Assembly (NCBI GenBank): GCA_030141605.1
Contig: JAQGDQ010000321.1
Location: 1 to 64,000 of the forward strand
Reading direction: 5' to 3'
Origin: Tubiluchus corallicola
Lineage: Eukaryota; Priapulida; Priapulimorpha; Priapulimorphida; Tubiluchidae
Length of the DNA stretch: 64,000 bases
The translations under genes were made by a program, and so were the position numbers. Positions 10,080-56,000 of the stretch are shown here, piece by piece. The notes under the pieces were generated by a model, which was given only the letters and a program-made list of their open reading frames with translations, made no database searches and was not told the origin of the DNA. Each line of letters begins with the position of its first letter. Position 1 is the stretch's first letter.

Positions 10080-11640
10080 AGTCTCTCTTCTGTGGGGCAT
10101 AGCCAGCACTGTTATGCTTGGCTGGTGGCATTTTCACAGCAGCCTCACCGCTTTCTTGGCATGCAGGGTTACGCTTTGCTGATGGCATTTCACAATCGTT
10201 TCTTCTCTTCGCTGGTCTGCAACGTTATAATTTGCTGATGACATTTCACAATGGTTTCTTCTCTTCACTGGTCTGAAATGTTACAGTTTGCTGATGACAT
10301 TTCACAATGGTTTCTTCTCTTCACTGGTCTACAACGTTACACTTTGGCATTTCACAACGGTTTTTCCTCTTCGCTAGTATTTAATTAGTTTAAACATATT
10401 TACTTTAGAATCTTAAATTTTTAATAATCATGCTCAGTCAGCTGATCTTGAAGGGGAATGATCCTATATGTCATACACTTCATCCGTCTCTACATTTCAT
10501 ATACAGTAATATCGTGCAAGTTTTATTAATGGCGTTACAGCAATCTTTCCTCTTCGCCTGTCTGCAGCTAGATGCTTTATTGACGGCATTCACAGCGGTC
10601 TTTCCTCTTCACAGGCAGGCAGAATTACATTTTACTTACTGCATTTTACGTCTATATCTCCTCTTCACTGGTGTGCAGCGTAACACTTTATTAACGACAT
10701 TCACAAGGGTCTCTCCTCTCCACTGGTGTGCAGAATTATGTTTTACGTCTGTCTCTCCTCTTCACTGGTGTGCAGCGTAATCCTTTATCGACGACATTCA
10801 CAAGGGTCTCTCCTCTCCACTGGTGTGCAGAATTATGTTTTACGTCTGTCTCTCCTGTTCGCTGGTGTGCAACATAATACTTTAGTGACGGCATTCACAA
10901 CGGTCCTTCCTCTTCACTGGTGTGCAGAATTATGCTTTACTTATGGCATTTTAGGACTGTCTCTCCCCTTCACTGGTGTGAAGCGTAATGCTTTATTGAC
11001 GACAATCACAAGGTCTTTCCTCTTCACTGGTGTGCAGAATTATGCTTTTCTTATAGTATTATAGGACTCTCTCTTCTCTTCACTGGTGTGCGGAATTGAA
11101 TTACACTTTACTTATGACATTTTAGGACTGTCTCTCCCCTTCACTGGTATGCAACACAATACTTTATTGACGGCATTCACAACGGTCTCTCCTCTTCAGT
11201 GGTGTGCAGAATTACGCTTTACTTATGGCATTTTAGGACTGTCTCTCCCCTTCACTGGTGAGCAACGTAATGCTTTATTGACGACATTCACAATGGTCTC
11301 TCCTCCTCATCGGTGTGCAGAATTACGCTTTACTTATGGCATTTTAGGACTGTCTCTCCTGTTCGCTGGTGTGAAATGTAATGCTTTATTGACGGCATTC
11401 CCAACAGTCTCTCCTCTTCACTAGTGTGGGCGACATTCACAACGGTCTTTTCTCTTCAACTGCATGCAAAATCACGCCTTAACCTGTGGCATTTTAGGGC
11501 TGTCTCTCGCCTTAACTGGTGTGCAGCATAATGCTTTGTTTCCGGTATTCACAACAGTCTGTTCCTCTTTGCTGGCATGATGCTTTACACCTTGCTGACG
11601 CATTTTACCACGATCTCTCCTTTTCGCTGCAGACATCACA
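10080..11640 (+). repeat. Minisatellite, about 55-bp unit
   Basis: Degenerate tandem copies of a unit with CTCTTCACTGGTGTGCAG, then GCTTTATTGACGACATTCAC, then a CAANGGTCTCTC-like join. The copies alternate between two unit types (CAGCGTAATGC and CAGAATTACGC versions). The array is interrupted at about 10380-10520. Several open frames (for example 11086-11424) result from the repeat and shift with each indel, so they are not protein genes. Confidence 0.9.
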
Positions 11641-14330: not shown

Positions 14331-14511
14331 GTTTAAAATATGTAAATATCATTTATCTTTTAGCAGGCACCTGTAAGTAGCTTTGGTTCTGAGGTTTTAA
14401 CTAACCCTTTTGTCTGTATAGTTTTATTGTTCTGTGTAGGCGTGTACGTTTTATCCTGCTTTCATGTTTTATACTTTCTTGGTGAATATTATTAATATTA
14501 TTAATATTCAC

Positions 14512-15240
14512 CACTACTACAATTCATCACTACCACAATTCATCACTACTACGTTTTGCAACTACTATGTTTCGCAACTACTACGTTTCGCCATTTCTAC
14601 GATTCCCCATTACTAAGTTTCGCCACTACTACAATTCGCCACTACTAAGATTCGCCACTGCCACGATTCGCCACTACTACGTTTTGCAACTACTACGTTT
14701 CGCCATTTCTACGATTCCCCATTACTAAGTTTCGCCACTACTACAATTCGCCACTACTAAGATTCGCCACTGCCACGATTCGCCACTACTATGTTTCGCA
14801 ACTACTACGTTTCGCCATTTCTACGATTCCCCATTACTAAGTTTCGCCACTACTACAATTCGCCACTACTAAGATTCGTCACTGCCACGATTCGCCACTA
14901 CTATATTTCGCAACTACTACGTTTCGCCATTTCTACGATTCGCCACTACTAAGTTTCGCCACTACTGCAATTCGCCACTACTAAGATTTGCCACTACTAC
15001 GATTCGCCACTACTACGATTCGCCACTACTACAATTCGCCACTACTAAGATTCGCCACTACTACGATCGCCATTACTATGATTCGCCACTACTACGATTC
15101 GCCATTACTACGATTCGCCATTACTATGATTCGCTACCAGTGTATAGTTCGCCATGAAAATTTTTCTTTACTATGTTAAGACCTTATCACTTTAACAAGT
15201 GTTTCAGTTCGCCATTACTATGATTCGCCACTACTAAGAT
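14512..15240 (+). repeat. 16-bp minisatellite with 112-bp higher-order unit
   Basis: The basic unit is TTCGCCACTACTACGA with substitutions. A seven-unit block repeats as a whole: the variant ACGTTTCGCCATTTCTAC occurs at 14583, 14695, 14807 and 14919, exactly 112 bp apart each time. The right part (about 14990 on) is simple 15/16-mers, then about 70 bp of unique sequence and two more units up to 15240. Confidence 0.95.
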
Positions 15241-22794: not shown

Positions 22795-22866
22795 TCCCAT
22801 ATGGTCTAGTGGTTAGGATTCCTGGTTTTCACCCAGGCGGCCCGGGTTCAATTCCCGGTGTGGGAA
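22795..22866 (+). tRNA. tRNA-Glu (anticodon UUC)
   Basis: The 72-nt sequence is almost identical to animal tRNA-Glu(UUC). The acceptor stem TCCCATA pairs with TGTGGGA (one U-G), the D-arm is GGTCTAGTGGTTAGGATTCC, the anticodon loop in CCTGGTTTTCACCCAGG shows TTC, and the T-arm is CCGGGTTCAATTCCCGG. A run of T follows at 22871, fitting a Pol III terminator. All internal promoter boxes are intact, so it is probably functional. Confidence 0.97.
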
Positions 22867-23662
22867 CATATTTTTACTTAACGCCATACCCTCACCCACA
22901 TTACCCGTAAATTTCATGATTCTACTCTTCAATATTAAAATATTTTTATCTAAATTCTAAACATTTGCGTAAGTTATTTTTAATCTATTGACCATTGAAA
23001 ATTACACCTGCTTACATGCGTACATTGGAAATCACAACAGTAGAAACAGCGCACAATTTAAATCTAATTTTGAAAGCAAAAATGTTTTTAACGTTCGCCT
23101 GAACCTCTTCTTCACAGTCCTACCCTACTAGCCCCCAAAAAAGGTCGATAATTGATTCTTGATAATGGTACCCACGTGTTTGCTCATACATATATCATAG
23201 TGTTCTAATTAAGCTTTTGACTTCTTTTGATTTGAATTGATTTTCTAGTGCAAACAAGGCTTAGGGCCAGCCAAAAATCCTGGCCACAAAAAATAAAATA
23301 AAAAACAATAAATTTTCGGGTGATGACAAAAATGCTGTTCTTTATTTTTATGTGAATAAATGTTTTGTAATTTTTATTGCGACCTATTCGTCAATTTTAT
23401 TTTAACATGGTGGATGAATAACACCTTTTTTGTAAACCACGTGATAATTTTATTTGCTCTTTTGAGCTAAAAGCTCTGCTACTTTGTTTTTCTTTAAGAT
23501 ATTAATCCACATTGGTTTCTTTTAGAGAAATACTTTCTACAGTTTACATTTGATACAGTCTTCTTGCGTAAAGCATCTTTGATCCTGGTACAACTCATGA
23601 TGATAGTGGGTCAACTATAGTCCAAGGTATTTTCTCTGTACCTGATCCTATTAAAGGAATTC
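22867..23662. other. Intergenic sequence upstream of the RAMA gene
   Basis: AT-rich DNA without supported coding exons. The promoter or additional 5' exons of the RAMA gene may lie here or further left, but I could not identify them. Confidence 0.45.
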
Positions 23663-24199
23663 TAAACTAAAAACATAAGTAGGGTTTACTGTTCTAAATC
23701 AATCTTAGAAGACAGCAAAGACAGCTTTTTAGGTAACTTCTCGAACAATACAGGAAGGATAATGGATTTAACAAGTGACATTTGTACCGGATCACCTATA
23801 CCTAAAAATAATAACTCTTATGTGCATCAACTCCCAAACCTTTAATTTTAATTCCATTGATTCGACTGAAAATTCCATTACAGTTGGCAATACATATAGT
23901 GATAGTAATTGTTCTCACAAAGCAACTTTTCCGAAGCAGCCGGTTCTTAACTATTGCCCTGATACTAGTGGACAAATACAACAGGAACAGACGAACTGTT
24001 CCCACATAATGTGACACATGTCGCACACAAATGTGCTGCACAGAGTACTCCGTCAAGCTCTGCCATTGAAAAACAATTTTACTCGTGAAAACAAACTGTG
24101 ATACGAGAGAAGTTCGCAAGCAACAGGACGACAACATTCTTGGTTTTCGTCAGACTCTAAGCAAGATTCACACAGCATGAAGCAAAATATACTGGATAA
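23663..24199 (+). CDS. Probable 5' coding stretch of the RAMA gene, frame-disrupted
   Basis: The segment has the same Ser/Asn/Asp-rich, coding-like composition as the following exon, but no single frame is open. Frame 2 reads SILEDSKDSFLGNFSNNTG and on to about 23845; frame 0 is open to about 24011 (SIDSTENSITVGNTYSDSN); frame 2 again over 24011-24085; frame 0 over 24084-24195 with one stop; then frame 2 into the intact exon. Small unrecognised introns, assembly indels or real decay could each explain this. I cannot place a start codon. An in-frame ATG at 23762 is the only attractive candidate in the first part. Confidence 0.35.
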
Positions 24200-24981
24200 T
24201 CTGAAAATCATAATAGTGAAGGCGCATCTGAGGTGAGCAACGTAAGATTAGTAGCTTTTGCATCACAGCATAGTGAAATGGAAACTGGATTATCACAATC
24301 TCTGTTAACTGACAATGCAGAACAATGTTTATTATTTACTGCGGAAAACAACTATGTAACAAGTGAGAATAAGGAATCACTTTTGTCAAAAACAACTGCA
24401 AATGCAAAGGACGATAAACAAAACATTCCTGATGATAGCTGTAGGACTGAAGCACAAATAATATGTAGTGCTGCAATACACAATAGTCTGTATGTGCAAA
24501 GGAACAAACTGGAATGCTCAAAGAATGATGAACAAGGTGCTCGTGGTGAGAACAGCAGAACCAGAAATGTAGAAGTTACTAATAATGTAATTAGTGAAAA
24601 AGACATTATGGAAATTTCCCAGGATAGTGAAACCGAATGTTCTGAATACAGTGCAAACATTGATGATGGTGGCTACAAAACCAAAGATAGAGAAAACAGC
24701 AAAGTTCTAAAGATGCTATGCTGTTCCCAAGAAGATGGAGTTGAATACATGAAAAATAACAAAGCTTTGAAGCTTAGCTGTAAAATTAGTGCTGAAGCTT
24801 GTAAGGTGAAGGAAATGGAAAACAGTGGCTCCGTAAATGGTGATAATGATAATGATGACGGTGATAATGTGGATCGTGATGACACTTTAACTCTGTACTC
24901 TCAAAAAGAAAATATTGAACAAGGCAACAATGACAGTGTTCTCATGATAAGTGTTTTTGATGATAATAATGGTGCTGCTTC

Positions 24982-25033
<52 letters not shown>

Positions 25034-28000
25034 AATGATGACGATGATGATGCCACACATTGTTCACAAGAAGATGAACTAAATAACAGAAACGACGACA
25101 GTGATGTGTCACAGTGCTCTATACAGACTGATATGAATGAAGACACCGTCAATGCCGTAGTTCATAAAAATGGAAACCTCGAAGAGAGTGACACAGTAAG
25201 CCTGTCGCATGATAATGAATCCACACAAGAAGATGAACTGGAAAGCAGTGATATTCATAATGATGCTCAAAAAATTAGAAGCCAAGAAAACAGCAGTGTT
25301 GCTAGCTCTTCTGCATATGAACACGTACCATCGTATGACTCGCAAATGGCCGATAACGAATCAGAGATTTTTGCAAAGGTGATTTTTTTCAAACTGTTAA
25401 TGAATTTCTTTCTATTTCGTGCTATTAATGTTTGAACATTTTTGTTTATTTTCCTTTTTATTATTGTCATCTAAAATAGACCCATGCAAGACGGTAGTGA
25501 GCAAATACAAGTAACTAGCTGTTTTAATCTGTGATTGATCTGTCACTTATCACTTTGCTTAAAGCATTAGTTGAAAGTTGGAAAACGTTATGAATTTGTG
25601 ACAAATGTTAAAACACTAAAAGGCTCTTACACATTTTTAGATGAGTGAACGGACTTGCTTCTTATTGCTGAAACTGGAGAAGCAGTTATCAATATTGTGT
25701 AACAAAGTGGATGACAATAAATTGTCTGACTTTAAAATTGGTAAACAATTTAAATCTTTCATAACCATGTTCGGCTTACCTACGCATTGCACCACCGATT
25801 CACCAAAAAACATATAACTGATAATATAAAATAGTCTCAGTTTTTGCTTATTAGCGATGGTGTGCTACGAATGCGTTGATTATTTTTTAAACTTTACACA
25901 ATGTTGTCTAAACTTATTTTAAACGAATTTACCGTTAGATTAAATTCTTTATTTCGACAGTTAGGTCATAAATTACGTAAAATATACACACAATTGCAAA
26001 TACATTTACCATAATAGTTACAAAGACAAAGATAGCTAAAAGTACCGTTTTTGAAAATAATAAATATACTGCAACAGTTATAAAAACAATTCATTCATTA
26101 GACAAGTACGTCATTTTAACCCTTCAGTCTGTTCTCAGTTACTATTTAGCCGATAGCTAAACGGATGTCATGTATGTAGTACAATGGCTGTGCTTAATGT
26201 TAAAAAGCTGCGACTAACGGTCATCGGGGGAGTTTAAATTTACAGGTTTTACCAGCATTACTGCTAACGCGAGTCTTGTATGCAATAAAACATAGATCGT
26301 GTATGTTATCTAAAATTTCGAGACGATTTTTAAGCTCTATTTACGAAGGGTGTTTTTTGTCCTTTAAACAGCTTCCTATACTGTGACAGTTTAAATACAT
26401 AATTTTTTTTCATTCAGGTCTCGTATATGTAAATTTTTGTAGCAGAAAATTGTTTTGCTGATAAGTGAGAATCTCGCTTCAAGAAGAAAATTACAGCCTA
26501 CCACTAGTAAATTAGTTGTATTATTCTGCTTATTATTTTTTACTGCACCCTTACCTTGAGTTGACGCTGGTTTTATAATCTTATACACATAAGATTTGAG
26601 AATCTTATATTATTAAGACAAGCTGTACCCCACTGCCCAAATGTTACGAAAGAAATGTAGGCGACCAGCTTGATTTGTGTAGCTTACACACATCCAAAAC
26701 TTATTTTTTTCTTTTAGCTACTTACAGGAAAACATTAGACTGCATGCAGTCGGTGTTTCAACAGCTGTTTGGAGCACTGATAAAAGAAAGAATGCAGTTG
26801 AAACGATCAGTGAAACTGTTGCCAAAGCGAGAAAAGCTAAAAGAACTGAATAGAAAACAAATGCGATTAACAACAATGATGAGAAAGCATCGCTGTGCAT
26901 TGACAAAAGTTAACAAAATGCTGAAGATGAGTGGAACTGAGTCAACTGATTATCGCTCCTTAAACTTGAACAGAATATCTTTGGCTAACCAAAAAGGACT
27001 AAAAAATTTTGAGCATTTCTTGGGCAACAGCTGGCAAGTAGATAGGAAAAATTTAGCAAAAACTAAACTCAAAACAAATGCTAAAAGTGGTCTTAAAACT
27101 GAGCTGGGATGTCTAGATGTTGGAAATAATGTCAATTGGGATACGTGGTACAACAAATCTAGTGGTAGAAAAAGATGCTTTTCACCAAAGCAGACCAAAC
27201 AGAAAGAACAGTACTCAGCAAATGAAGCTTGTACTGATATTCTTTGTAATGATACTCTAAATACTCAGCAAAATGGAAGAAACAGTGCACAGAAAAGATC
27301 TTATGCTGCTGTCAGACAGCAAGAGATTAATACTCAGATTTTTTTTCAAAGAAACAGTTTTGCAAACAAAGCAAACTCTTGGAATTTGCCTCCTTGTGCT
27401 ATAACTGAAAAGGCCATTTTTAGCAGCTTATCGCCTAGTCACGTGGTGCAGAATCATAGCATTATCACGGGTAATGGTTCACAGCAAACATCTCAAAAGG
27501 GAGCTGTCATTTCTACAAACAATTTGGCATTTGGAGAAACCAAAACTACTCCCAACATCACAGAAAGACAACCACCAGTGTACTCTAATACATCTAAAGA
27601 TGTCATGGCTTTTCGTAATATGCCACGTTTGGTGGAATCACTATCTTCGCTTGAATGGGTCATTGCAAATAAATCATTACTACGTAATAACATGGGGACG
27701 ACCAACGAAGAGTTACTGGAATCAGTAATGAATAGTTCTCAGATTGAGAATTTGGAGTGGACTCACCCGATAGACTCTTGTTTACAAGATGACGTCCTTA
27801 AAGAGTGTCCTTTGCCATCAATTGAGACAACGGCCAACACGATTAAAGTAACAGCTGATGCTATTAATGAAGGTACAGAAAAAGCATATGAAGCAAGCTC
27901 AGCTTTAGAAGACAGCTCCAGTAACAAAGGTCCTCCACATCAAACGCAGTTGAAGGGAATTACTAGTTGTGAATCAGATATAAGCAACCACCATACATTA

Positions 28001-29691
28001 AATATGAATAATGAGTTAATAGAAATTATAAAACTAGCTCAAACTTTCATGGCATGCAAAACATCAGCTGAGATTTATGACATTATCTTTGAAAAATTGA
28101 ATGAAAAAACTGGTGATAATAGTGATGTGATATGTTTAGTTGAGGGACAAACAAATGTCACAAAACCCAAGGACAATATATTAAAAGTGAAAAATCAGCA
28201 AATGCCAACTGAACACACTAGCATGAGTTTTGCAACTTCATTTTTCCCTGCATCTGCAGAATCAAACTATTTGTCAGCAACTGCATTGTCCGCACTTGCA
28301 AAAGAGCCTTCGATGAATAATTTAGTAAATACAACAGCATCATCAACAGGACTACCACTGTCACAAAATATACCAAGATCTTCATCACCTGCAGTTAAAA
28401 CAACTGGATTATCTATATTACCACGCACAATGGAAGTTACACCAAGTAAGGTAACAACGTCATTGATGACGCCAGTGTCATTTTGTCCCACAGTTACGCC
28501 ATCAGTGTCAGCATTAATAGTCGCACAGCCAGCTAATACTGTAATTTCTTCGTCGTTCACAACACCAATGCTATCTGCTGTAGCATCGTTAGATAGACCT
28601 GCAGTTATGGCAGAAATACCCAGCCAGACACATCATAGTGAGTTTACCTCATCATCTCAAGCTAACAGGACTAAACATAGTCAGCTTCTCAAGGAATACC
28701 CTCCATTAGATTTGCTGCTAAAACAAGGAGTGTTGGAACCAGGCAAAAATCTTTTGACAATTACCACTGAGGTAGCACATGTTACTACAAAGAGCATTTA
28801 TTATTTTTTGTAATAGAGACGCTGCTTAGACGTGATGAATTTTTAAATTTCTATATAATATCAGGTTTTACTATACGAAGCCACTTTGAATCACATGAAG
28901 ATTTAGTCAACACTGATCAAAATGAATAATATTGCGACTTTCAGGCAAAGGTCTTCTATGGGTCATTGCTGTCAGACGGTCTCATTCAAGGATCTGGCGG
29001 TGAGATATTTATCAGTCCAATGCAGTGGTGTAACAGTGTGTTTTATAAGAAAGGCAAAAAGTTGAAGTCTTCTCGCAAAACTGCTTACCAGAAGGTAACC
29101 TACCTTTTAGCAAATATTCTAGAAATACTGTAGAACTTTTTCTCATGTCTCGTGGACAGGGCAATAGCTTAATGGCCACTGTGTATTAATGACTGCAAAG
29201 TAAATTGAAGATTTGGTTAGCTGGCTGTGACTGCCCGGTAAGCACCAGGCGATCTTACTTGCTATATAGATGTCTCTCCTGTTATGCTCGATGGACATAC
29301 ATACATATATTCATCTGAAAGTGGTTAACATATCTGTGCTGTGGTTAAATCTCACCTCAGAGGTTACTTTTGATACTGATTTAGGTTCTTATCCCACCAC
29401 TATCATCAGCATTAGAGTAATGACTGATGTATGTGTCAACCTTCGTCATCATTTATTTTTCTGTTTCAGGTTTGCTACCGTGGAAGGCCACTTATACATT
29501 ACAAACTTCTGGTTGAAAGTGAAGGTCAAAGTTTTCCAATAGATGAGTCAATCCAAACACAACCCTCTACCACAGTGGCTTCAAGCTGTATTGAAAACTC
29601 TAATAACAACAATGCTAAAGACAAAACTTCATCAAGGGAAGAATTAAAAGGCGGAACCTTCCTTCCTTTGTCCAGACTCTTCTATCAATGA
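24200..29691 (+). CDS. Large acidic/low-complexity protein with C-terminal RAMA domain, 5' end unresolved
   Basis: Exons: 24200-25378 (open in frame from 24200, true start unknown), 25641-25740, 26718-28771, 28945-29094, 29470-29691 (TGA). Phases 0, 1, 0, 0 all fit, giving about 1234 residues. The first exon encodes acidic, Ser/Asn-rich sequence with DDD runs and a polyalanine tract; the second and the start of the third encode a Leu/Lys-rich, probably helical region (LLLKLEKQLSILCNK, then KREKLKELNRKQ); a long disordered part follows; the last three exons form a RAMA domain. In animals RAMA domains are known from MPND and the meiotic protein ANKRD31. MPND has an MPN domain after RAMA, which is absent here. 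An ANKRD31-like gene is possible, but I see no ankyrin repeats in the window and do not name it. Likely nuclear, by inference. Confidence 0.85.
24972..25033 (+). repeat. (GCT)n trinucleotide tract encoding polyalanine
   Basis: A run of GCT triplets, perfect for most of its length, encodes about 19 consecutive alanines in the acidic N-terminal part of the RAMA-domain protein, directly followed by a run of aspartates. Near-pure codon use indicates slippage expansion rather than conserved protein sequence, so the length is probably polymorphic. Confidence 0.95.
28691..29530 (+). CDS. RAMA domain encoded across three exons
   Basis: The domain starts at PLDLLLKQGVLEPGKNLLTI (end of exon 26718-28771), continues in 28945-29094 with VFYGSLLSDGLIQ, FISPMQW and SSRKTAYQKV, and finishes in 29470 onward with CYRGRPLIHYKLLVE. 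The order Leu-x-x-G-x-L-x-PG, a G-x-L-x-x-DG-x-I strand pair, an F-x-SP-x-x-W segment and a Lys-x-x-AY-x-x-V-x-Y-x-G-x-x-L end matches the RAMA (restriction enzyme and adenine methylase associated) family, thought to bind DNA or chromatin. All hallmark positions are present. The assignment rests on pattern recognition only. Confidence 0.75.
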
Positions 29692-53041: not shown

Positions 53042-56000
53042 CTAAATTTAAGCAGAAAATTGTATTCAAAATGGTTTAATTTATAATAACTAAGAATCAA
53101 ATTGAAAAAATGAAAGTACATAATTTTTTCCTTTTGCAAAAATCCATTAAAACTTTAAAAGCATAAAAGCAGGCTTAACTAGTTTTATTGAGAGAATTGT
53201 TGAAAGAGAAAGACACATTCTGACAATTGTTAGATTTTTGAAAAAAAAAAGATGCACAAGTTATAATTAGACTTATATTCACTTTTAGGAAGTTTACGTA
53301 AACAACAGAATAAAAAATGGCAGTCATGACATGCAGTTTTATCATCAAATATATTCAGTGTTTACACAGTAGCAAAAATTAGACTCCGGTACCCTTTTCC
53401 TTACACCTGTCAGGTACCCGATTGTTAAGACTAAGCAGCAGCGAAGAAATTGAAATCAGTTTTATACGTACATAAAAACAATGACTGATGCATTTCACCT
53501 AACTGCAGTGTTATCGTGACATGTTCCACGAATCACAAAAGTTAATGTTTCGGCAAGCACAACATTTGAATGAGTTCTTGCCCTTAGCTGCCTGCCAAAC
53601 TTCTTAATTACGCTGTACTCGCAAGCATATTGCACACTTTACATCATTCAGCCAGCTACGTCAGTCTAACTGCCACATTAATACAGCGGAGGGATCAAGA
53701 GAATCATAACTATCCATATTGTCATTGTTTGTGTGTTTAAACTTAAGAATTACATATTCGTATCTTTGTTAGTGGTCTAATATAGTTTTTCAACTGTTAA
53801 TAAACAATTTCGTTTAGATAGTTAACCTCTTGGTAAAGAAATCATTGTTGTTTTATGTTACTCCCACGACAAAAGTGGTTTAATCTGCCATGGATCTGCA
53901 ACTGTTAGAGATATTTCCAAATGCTGCTTCCAATTAATAATCTACTAATGGCATTTAAATTTTAAATTCACAAACAATGGATATATCATATTAACAATAA
54001 TGTGTGCATTTTCACTGTTGGAACCGGATAGAATTATCAGGCTCGGGTAACAAACAATATGGGTAATTACTCGGGTACCCGATGGAAACACTATCGTCAA
54101 TGCAGGTATTTTTGCATAAGCCTATTTAGCTATTAGGCTATCATACCAGCTTTCGTGGAACCTTTTGAAATTGAAGTTACCATTTATCCACCATTTGATA
54201 ATTTTAATATTAGCATTCCACTAATATATTCCACAAAGATGTTCGAAATGAATAAAATTTGCCTATTTTCAAATTTGCTGTTTTATTTTTTAAGCTACAA
54301 ACTTTGTCATCAAAACACAACAATACTGTGTATAACAAACGCTAATATAAAAAACGATTAATTAAAAAAGCTCCAAATCACAACAAAATTAAACATACTT
54401 TTTGAAATTTGACTCTGACGTGGCTACACCAGTAAAAGTTTCTCCTAAAATGTTGTTTGTTGAAGGTGGTGGAGCTGCTGGAGGGCTACCAAAAATATCT
54501 AGGAGCATGTCACTAGAAGGGGCAGCTGTATTTGCAGGAGATGGTGCTGCTGGGGGAGTCGGCTCCGTACCAATGTCTAGGCCTAGAAGATCAGCTGAAA
54601 CCTGGGGACTTGGTGGAGCCACATCCTGGTTAAAGAAAATGTAGTTATAATTAGTTAATCGACAAAATAACACAACAAATTGTATAAAAAAATCATCCAG
54701 TGTGCCGAGATTTAGTGAATCAAAGCTTGTGGCTGCCTGAGTTCAAATGCTAACTAAATAAACTTGACCCTGTTAACTAGAAGATCTAAGCAAAGCACAA
54801 TTCGCCTTTTCTTATCATGATAAGTGTCATTCTAAGTATCTCCATCTCTATTTTCTTTTAGCATTTCAAACTGAAGAATAACTTATATGAAAATTAAAAC
54901 ACTGTGTTTGAAATACACAAATTACTAAGACTTTAAGAAAGACATGCTCTTTCAATAATTAGTTTAACAGCTAACTAACTGAAGACGACGATGTTAAAAA
55001 GTTGTGAGCACCAGGACTTAAACTAGAACCTTGAGATTTCACATCACATGCTCTACCAGTTGAGCTATCTGCCCACTACAGGACAGCAGGTGTGTGATCT
55101 CATCCAACATGTGCACAGCTAGTCAGAGCTACCTATGTAATACTAGTGGCATACATATGCATATATGAATTGTGAAAAATGAAATGGTGGAGAAAATTTA
55201 TAAAATGTAACATTCACTAGATTCAAACACCTGCAATATATTTAAACAAAAGCAAGTTGGGGAAACTTCACTAACAATAAGAAAGGAATCTAACAAAGAA
55301 ATACGTTTCCAAAATACAGATAATTGTTGCCTCATCTTACCTGTATCACACCAGTCGGTGTCGTCGTGCCATTTATCATTTTACTGTCTTTCTTCGTTTT
55401 GCCTTCCTCTATCTCACCGTCACGAAGAGCCGAAGGCTTCTTCTTCTTCAGAATAGCTAAGATAGAGGACTCCCTCTCTGGAAACGGAGGCATCTCTTCC
55501 AAAACTGTCGCCTAAGCAATAAGAAATGAATCCCACATCAATGTGTTTCAGAAATCAATGGTGGATAATGGTGAAGTCAAACTTATGGTATAATGACGTC
55601 ATCAAACTTATAATTACATTTATATAGACATCTCTGTGAAAATGTCTATAAAACATTGACTCTGTTAATTACTTTACTAAATGACTTTATTAAGGTGTCA
55701 AAATTGTTATTATAGTACACTGTCAAGTATTATCAATATTTTATTACTGTTGTAACAAACAATCTTTTACTGGAACCAAAAACAACAAGCATACCAAGAC
55801 ATCAGGGCTAGTAACTTTACTCATTTGTAAATATTCCACGGTTCTCTGCTGTATCTCAGCGTCAGCATTACGCACATTAGAATCAGCTGACAAGATCTGA
55901 AAGCAGGTAAAACATACATTGTGTACTAAGTATTAAACTCCCTTTATGAATGCTTTATATACAAATCATTGCGCTTGTTGCAAACATATTGTCAAATCAG

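Follow-up and report, generated by a model that had tools for sequence, protein, structure and literature searches.

A large, low-complexity protein predicted in the priapulid Tubiluchus corallicola ends in a RAMA domain, with no MPN domain detected

What kind of animal protein ends in a RAMA domain and has no MPN domain beside it? In animals, RAMA is a likely DNA-binding module that is found mainly in MPND and ANKRD31 and has been proposed as a reader of DNA or chromatin state. The question is raised by a multi-exon gene of Tubiluchus corallicola, located in a window of 64,000 nucleotides (assembly GCA_030141605.1, contig JAQGDQ010000321.1, positions 1 to 64,000, forward strand) that starts at the first base of the contig. 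The G+C content of the window is 36%, and a neighboring gene has a chitin-binding match under the cut-off. Searches for Chitin_bind_4, for the mollusc haemocyanin domain and for COX1 gave no match; for the first two, control genomes gave none either, and absence does not follow from them. A sequence-only reading had proposed that the last three exons of the gene form a RAMA domain, preceded by a helical region and long disordered parts. The features discussed here are collected in Table 1.

Table 1. Features of the RAMA gene and its upstream flank, in window coordinates
Feature	Coordinates	Strand	Evidence
Weakly coding-like stretch interrupted by stops and shifts of frame; may be a decayed exon, an assembly error or non-coding DNA	23680..24215	+	coding score
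Acidic Ser/Asp/Asn/Glu-rich open block with poly-Ala tract; 5' boundary uncertain, putative link to downstream exons	24200..25378	+	393 open codons, coding signal, composition, donor AAG/GTGATT
Candidate 100-base exon MSERTCFLLLKLEKQLSILCNKVDDNKLSDFKI restoring the frame	25641..25740	+	1 of 3 candidates; joined model open
Long exon: basic Leu/Lys-rich helical region, Ser/Thr/Asn-rich linker, RAMA start	26718..28771	+	684 open codons; second copy not found by protein search
Leu/Lys-rich region, first two predicted helices	26750..26929	+	AlphaFold2
RAMA part 1	28703..28771	+	PF18755 match
RAMA part 2, whole exon, phase 0	28945..29094	+	PF18755 match; GT-AG introns
RAMA part 3	29470..29505	+	PF18755 match
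C-terminal tail, 59 residues, without Trp, ends FLPLSRLFYQ, then stop TGA	29512..29691	+	translation

The spliced exons match the Pfam RAMA profile PF18755 (E 2.7e-11, 43.8 bits against a cut-off of 35.2) across profile positions 20-98 of 107, a significant profile match that confirms the proposed domain. Both RAMA introns start with GT and end with AG, and the exon joins are in phase 0 with the frame intact. No MPN match was obtained in the three gene pieces scanned, namely the RAMA exons, 26600-28771 and 24200-25378; over these pieces, the idea that RAMA ends the protein without an MPN domain holds.

A phmmer search of the PDB with the RAMA sequence (limit 0.1) returned one distinct sequence, that of the MPND RAMA crystal structure 7YDT/7YDW (E 6.7e-6). 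Raising the limit to 10 added 41 further sequences, every one with E >= 0.44. On our alignments, and in our own numbering, the DNA-contacting residues S113, S115 and W135 of MPND correspond to S, M and Y, so that one of the three is kept and two are different, one of these still being aromatic. PMC9963953 reports that the MPND RAMA binds dsDNA and histones in vitro and, in its comparison, places the RAMA of CcrM-type bacterial proteins in the same domain family; those proteins have a methylase part, whereas none was seen with the RAMA studied here. Searches for bacterial relatives gave no tblastn match in a plasmid collection and, in one scan of bacterial genomes, 21 stretches that fit a pattern, none of which was confirmed. 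Neither the long exon alone nor the C-terminal tail alone matched the PDB, and an NCBIfam search gave matches only far under the cut-off.

Upstream of the domain, the gene model rests on two long open frames. The block from 24200 to 25378 and the long exon both exceed by far the longest frames in 300 single-base shuffles (at most 143 and 161 codons, respectively). The sequence itself shows RAMA, the way its exons are spliced and these open frames; how the two large blocks are joined is more conditional. They had initially been taken as one frame, which does not work as drawn: the first block ends in phase 0 and fits neither the acceptor at 26718 nor that at 26728. A frameshift was considered as the cause of this mismatch and given up once the 100-base candidate exon appeared. 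With this exon, the frame stays open for 1,234 codons between 24200 and the stop that ends at 29691. Because frame-restoring candidates of at least 100 bases also arise in 20 of 500 randomised introns (and in 3 of 31 upstream pieces), a role of the exon in joining both blocks is plausible only. The joining exon being within chance, the first block may not be part of this gene, and translation could then begin with the ATG at 26744, giving about 800 codons. The gene start placed at 24200 had likewise to be dropped, as the frame merely opens there and its first in-frame ATG is at 24278. The encoded protein is predicted to be no shorter than about 800 residues and probably reaches about 1,200, which includes the inferred link between the two large blocks.

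A gene that is open in its 3' part only, that is, a pseudogene, would, should the candidate exon not be real, be another way to account for the phase mismatch at 25378. The broken frame just upstream of the first block makes a partly decayed gene possible: the coding score of 23700-24215 is -5.5, compared to +24 and +26 for two real coding segments, a mean of -34.8 for 45 upstream segments (one of which, at -4.2, exceeds it) and a mean of -34.4 for 300 shuffles (best -4.8). Set against this coding-like stretch are the two frames far longer than in shuffles and the RAMA with its GT-AG introns and uninterrupted reading, and we regard a pseudogene as very unlikely. Neither a DNA search with 23500-28771 nor a protein search with 26717-28771 turned up another copy of the gene in the genome, and the only other RAMA locus found by profile search is an ordinary MPND.

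The residue composition agrees with the proposal of a large low-complexity protein, and, judged by composition only, long parts of it may be disordered. AlphaFold2, run on the single sequence 26744-27001, predicted helices at residues 3-23, 28-62 and 70-84 (mean pLDDT 76.1, pTM 0.38). The helical region expected just before RAMA is thus predicted, but it does not adjoin the domain, from which it is separated by about 590 residues.

Among the RAMA domains tested, the closest is that of MPND from the same genome (36% identical over 87 residues, with E 3e-13 when these two are compared by themselves; score 116, compared to 94 for human ANKRD31). Together with the lack of both MPN and ankyrin matches in the parts searched, this proximity is consistent with either a third lineage of RAMA proteins in animals or an old paralogue of MPND that has no MPN domain, with no special kinship to ANKRD31. 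The two genes are nevertheless built differently. MPND has an MPN domain and carries its RAMA, in this genome, in one uninterrupted frame; the gene described here has its RAMA cut by two introns, at the C-terminus, and accompanied by large low-complexity regions. Its RAMA is also more similar to that of ANKRD31 than the RAMA of the MPND from the same genome is. On balance, we consider a third lineage or an MPND paralogue possible, at somewhat less than even chances.

The likeness to ANKRD31, a vertebrate meiotic DSB regulator, was assessed using a human ANKRD31 sequence, whose RAMA fragment scored 92 bits in a check against the RAMA profile. The RAMA of the gene aligns to it with a score of 94 (z 12.7, 0 of 1000 shuffles as high), compared to 34 for the MPND RAMA of the same genome (z 1.7, reached by 78 of 1000 shuffles). 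This closer likeness points to a possible origin on the ANKRD31 side. In an alignment of four RAMA sequences, 6 gap-free columns are common to the gene and ANKRD31 against both MPNDs, and both lack one residue present in the MPNDs; against this, 12 columns are common to the gene and both MPNDs to the exclusion of ANKRD31.

In ANKRD31, a tail of similar length follows RAMA (RAMA-to-FLP spacing 56 residues, 59 in the gene) and includes a REC114-binding segment with an essential Trp, W1842 in mouse; the stop of the gene coincides with the position of this Trp, as counted by eye and post hoc, and its own tail has none. The two tails align with a score under the shuffle mean (z -1.0, reached by 905 of 1000 shuffles). 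ANKRD31 also has a coiled-coil region upstream of RAMA, where helices are predicted in the gene. Alignment of these regions gave z 0.1 to 0.7 (231 of 1000, 839 of 2000 and 490 of 2000 shuffles), and a coil resemblance at first read as support for kinship was given up, similarity being within that of shuffles; the human coil found no match elsewhere in the genome, a negative that carries no weight, as no control genome is known to match. Ankyrin repeats, which ANKRD31 has, were not found within the window, either by a consensus scan of 2,098 six-frame ORFs (best E 7; single divergent repeats could escape) or, upstream of the gene, by a Pfam search of the three forward frames of 1-24200, which matched no family. 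Ank_2 is readily detected elsewhere in the genome, with 204 matches, and ankyrin repeats belonging to the gene could lie on another contig.

Of the meiotic genes, SPO11-type and MEI4 matches are present in the genome. REC114 was not found: one Pfam match was under the cut-off (E 1.49), from which absence does not follow, and a human PH-domain query, confirmed in the PDB, had no genome match, a negative equally without weight, as no control genome is known to match.

The sequence-only reading is supported in part: a RAMA domain with no MPN detected, on a large low-complexity protein, holds up, and a divergent ANKRD31-type factor and a new RAMA architecture are both possible. The RAMA resembles that of ANKRD31; neither ankyrin repeats in the window nor the tail Trp accompany it. 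An invertebrate orthologue of ANKRD31, acting as a scaffold of the meiotic break machinery, would need ankyrin repeats that were lost, off the contig or missed and a changed contact with REC114. The RAMA scores, shared columns, tail spacing and SPO11-type and MEI4 matches argue for it; the ankyrin repeats and tail Trp that were not found, the higher score and the 12 columns shared with MPND, the coil and tail similarity within shuffles, the REC114 searches and two papers that call ANKRD31 vertebrate-specific argue against it, and we find it rather unlikely.

We moderately favor a broader reading, in which the gene encodes a C-terminal-RAMA protein that, judged by its layout, would act as a chromatin scaffold of the same sort as ANKRD31 or MPND, without an MPN domain. 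The C-terminal RAMA would probably tether the protein to DNA or chromatin regardless of sequence, and the basic helical region and the long low-complexity parts would probably recruit or cluster partners, possibly by self-association. The gene may have a meiotic role.

Being a further RAMA gene, from another animal and with no MPN domain detected, this gene offers an independent case for studying RAMA function, and it could test whether ANKRD31 has roots older than the vertebrates. We consider it unlikely that it is an invertebrate member of the ANKRD31 lineage that kept RAMA and has neither ankyrin repeats nor the REC114-binding Trp. If that were true, ANKRD31 would have arisen from a RAMA scaffold already present in earlier animals, and the tethering of RAMA to DNA would be older than the role with REC114.

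The RAMA domain proposed from sequence inspection was confirmed by a Pfam profile search, in which the translated, joined last exons matched PF18755 (E 2.7e-11; 43.8 bits, above the curated cut-off of 35.2 bits) over profile positions 20-98 of 107; in the query, 162 residues long, the match covers residues 17-101. When the domain (106 residues) was searched against the PDB at a limit of 0.1, one distinct sequence matched, that of the MPND RAMA structure (7YDT/7YDW); the 41 further sequences listed at a limit of 10 each had E 0.44 or worse. Both RAMA introns have GT...AG ends and the frame is kept across the joins. RAMA was the sole Pfam family above cut-off in the pieces of the gene scanned, in agreement with the claim that it lacks an MPN domain.

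The blocks of the sequence-only reading cannot form one directly joined gene: the first block runs to 25378 and finishes in phase 0, and the next exon requires phase 1 (acceptor 26718) or 2 (acceptor 26728). Frame-restoring exons were sought in this intron with its repeat-filled middle excluded, yielding three candidates, two with a common acceptor at 25641. The longer of these two encodes MSERTCFLLLKLEKQLSILCNKVDDNKLSDFKI and gives 1,234 open codons from 24200 to the stop, with a first in-frame ATG at 24278. Because candidate exons of any length also arose in 229 of 500 randomised introns (20 with at least 100 bases) and in 13 of 31 upstream pieces (3 with at least 100 bases), we grade it as plausible only that this exon is real and joins both blocks; in its absence, a start at ATG 26744 could give a protein of about 800 residues. 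Upstream of the open frame, a coding-like signal is present only if frame changes and stops are allowed. The coding score of 23700-24215 is -5.5. By comparison, 45 upstream segments averaged -34.8 (one of them scored above -5.5, at -4.2), the best of 300 shuffles reached -4.8, and two real coding segments scored +24 and +26. These values hint weakly at a decayed or misassembled exon.

Features of the window, with coordinates
Feature	Position	Strand	Remark
RAMA gene	24200-29691	+	larger model; open to the stop if the candidate exon is included
Candidate exon	25641-25740	+	longer candidate
RAMA introns	28772-28944; 29095-29469	+
Coding-like stretch	23680-24215
Interspersed repeats	25788-26371; 23501-23654		many genomic copies, 71-83% identity
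tRNA-Glu (TTC) gene	22795-22867	+	just 5' of the RAMA gene
Tandem array	14506-15134		units of ~112 bases
Tandem array	10644-11428		units of ~97 and ~111 bases
Neighbouring gene	~31.0-37.0 kb	-	CBM14 match below cut-off (E 0.0047); long Ser/Thr-rich region; resembles a secreted chitin deacetylase by eye, with no Pfam match for deacetylase
Open frame	54389-54742	-	like an adaptin-type hinge by eye; no match in NCBIfam, the one collection tried

In the larger model, the N-terminal part of the protein is acidic and rich in Ser, Ala, Asp, Asn and Glu, with poly-Ala, and is followed by a basic Leu/Lys-rich region predicted to be helical from the single sequence (mean pLDDT 76.1, pTM 0.38). This region does not directly precede RAMA: the two are separated by about 590 residues in which Ser, Leu, Thr, Asn and Lys are abundant. 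Disorder of the low-complexity parts was judged from composition.

A six-frame search of the genome gave two RAMA matches, the gene under study and an MPND-like gene (locus L001, 1474-2751). The latter holds RAMA in one uninterrupted 425-codon frame, together with what we take, by eye rather than by profile, to be MPN. Since an exon-split RAMA is easily overlooked (the present one reached just E 0.065), the genome may contain more copies. No second match to the long exon was found in the genome, and DNA matches of 23500-28771, a span ending before the last two exons, are confined to the interspersed repeats.

For comparison with ANKRD31 we used a putative human fragment, supported in its tail by a match to mouse ANKRD31 in 6NXF (E 9e-18) and in its RAMA by a score of 92 bits. 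The presence of a RAMA domain in ANKRD31 is supported here through this fragment, and one literature search for publications pairing 'RAMA domain' with ANKRD31 yielded none. The RAMA here scored 94 against this ANKRD31 RAMA (z 12.7, 0 of 1000 shuffles) and 116 against the genome's own MPND RAMA (z 20.2, 0 of 1000), whereas the latter two scored 34 against each other (z 1.7, 78 of 1000). In this unrooted comparison the RAMA here lies between those of ANKRD31 and MPND, a position that may reflect no more than least change in the RAMA here. Six gap-free columns are common to this gene and ANKRD31 against the MPNDs (which disagree in one), and 12 to this gene and both MPNDs against ANKRD31.

Outside RAMA, similarity to the putative human fragment was not significant for the coil (231 of 1000 shuffles; once the candidate exon is included, 839 of 2000 in local and 490 of 2000 in semi-global alignment) or the tail (905 of 1000). 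An 'FLP' spaced much as in ANKRD31, with the stop at the ANKRD31 Trp position, is a post hoc observation; mouse has LLP there. The 59-residue tail C-terminal to RAMA contains no Trp, whereas the REC114-binding segment of ANKRD31 depends on W1842, according to PMC9671922. A consensus scan of the window's 2,098 ORFs in six frames found no ankyrin repeat (best E 7), and neither did Pfam in the three plus-strand frames of 1-24200, position 1 being the first base of the contig. As a control, at least 204 Ank_2 matches occur elsewhere in the genome (150 of 873 candidates scored), with none on this contig among the matches listed. The genome has SPO11-type (78.6 bits) and MEI4 (47.6 bits) matches; REC114 was not found in genome searches, which does not establish its absence. 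PMC10666023 and PMC10997794 describe ANKRD31 as vertebrate-specific and as one that 'seems specific to vertebrates', respectively. The RAMA similarity speaks for a divergent ANKRD31-type protein, and the ankyrin and tail Trp results speak against one. This is a genuine RAMA gene whose architecture is not that of MPND and not demonstrably that of ANKRD31; comparable proteins may already be in public databases, unnamed.

According to PMC9963953, the MPND RAMA shows no sequence preference in binding dsDNA and also binds histones in vitro; 6mA left its binding unchanged in that study, which cites an earlier one reporting 6mA binding. Three MPND contact residues read from alignments are partly kept here: one Ser is retained, a second Ser is replaced by Met, and Trp by Tyr. 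The RAMA domain would therefore likely tether the protein to DNA or chromatin, and the helices and low-complexity parts would probably serve as partner-binding regions.
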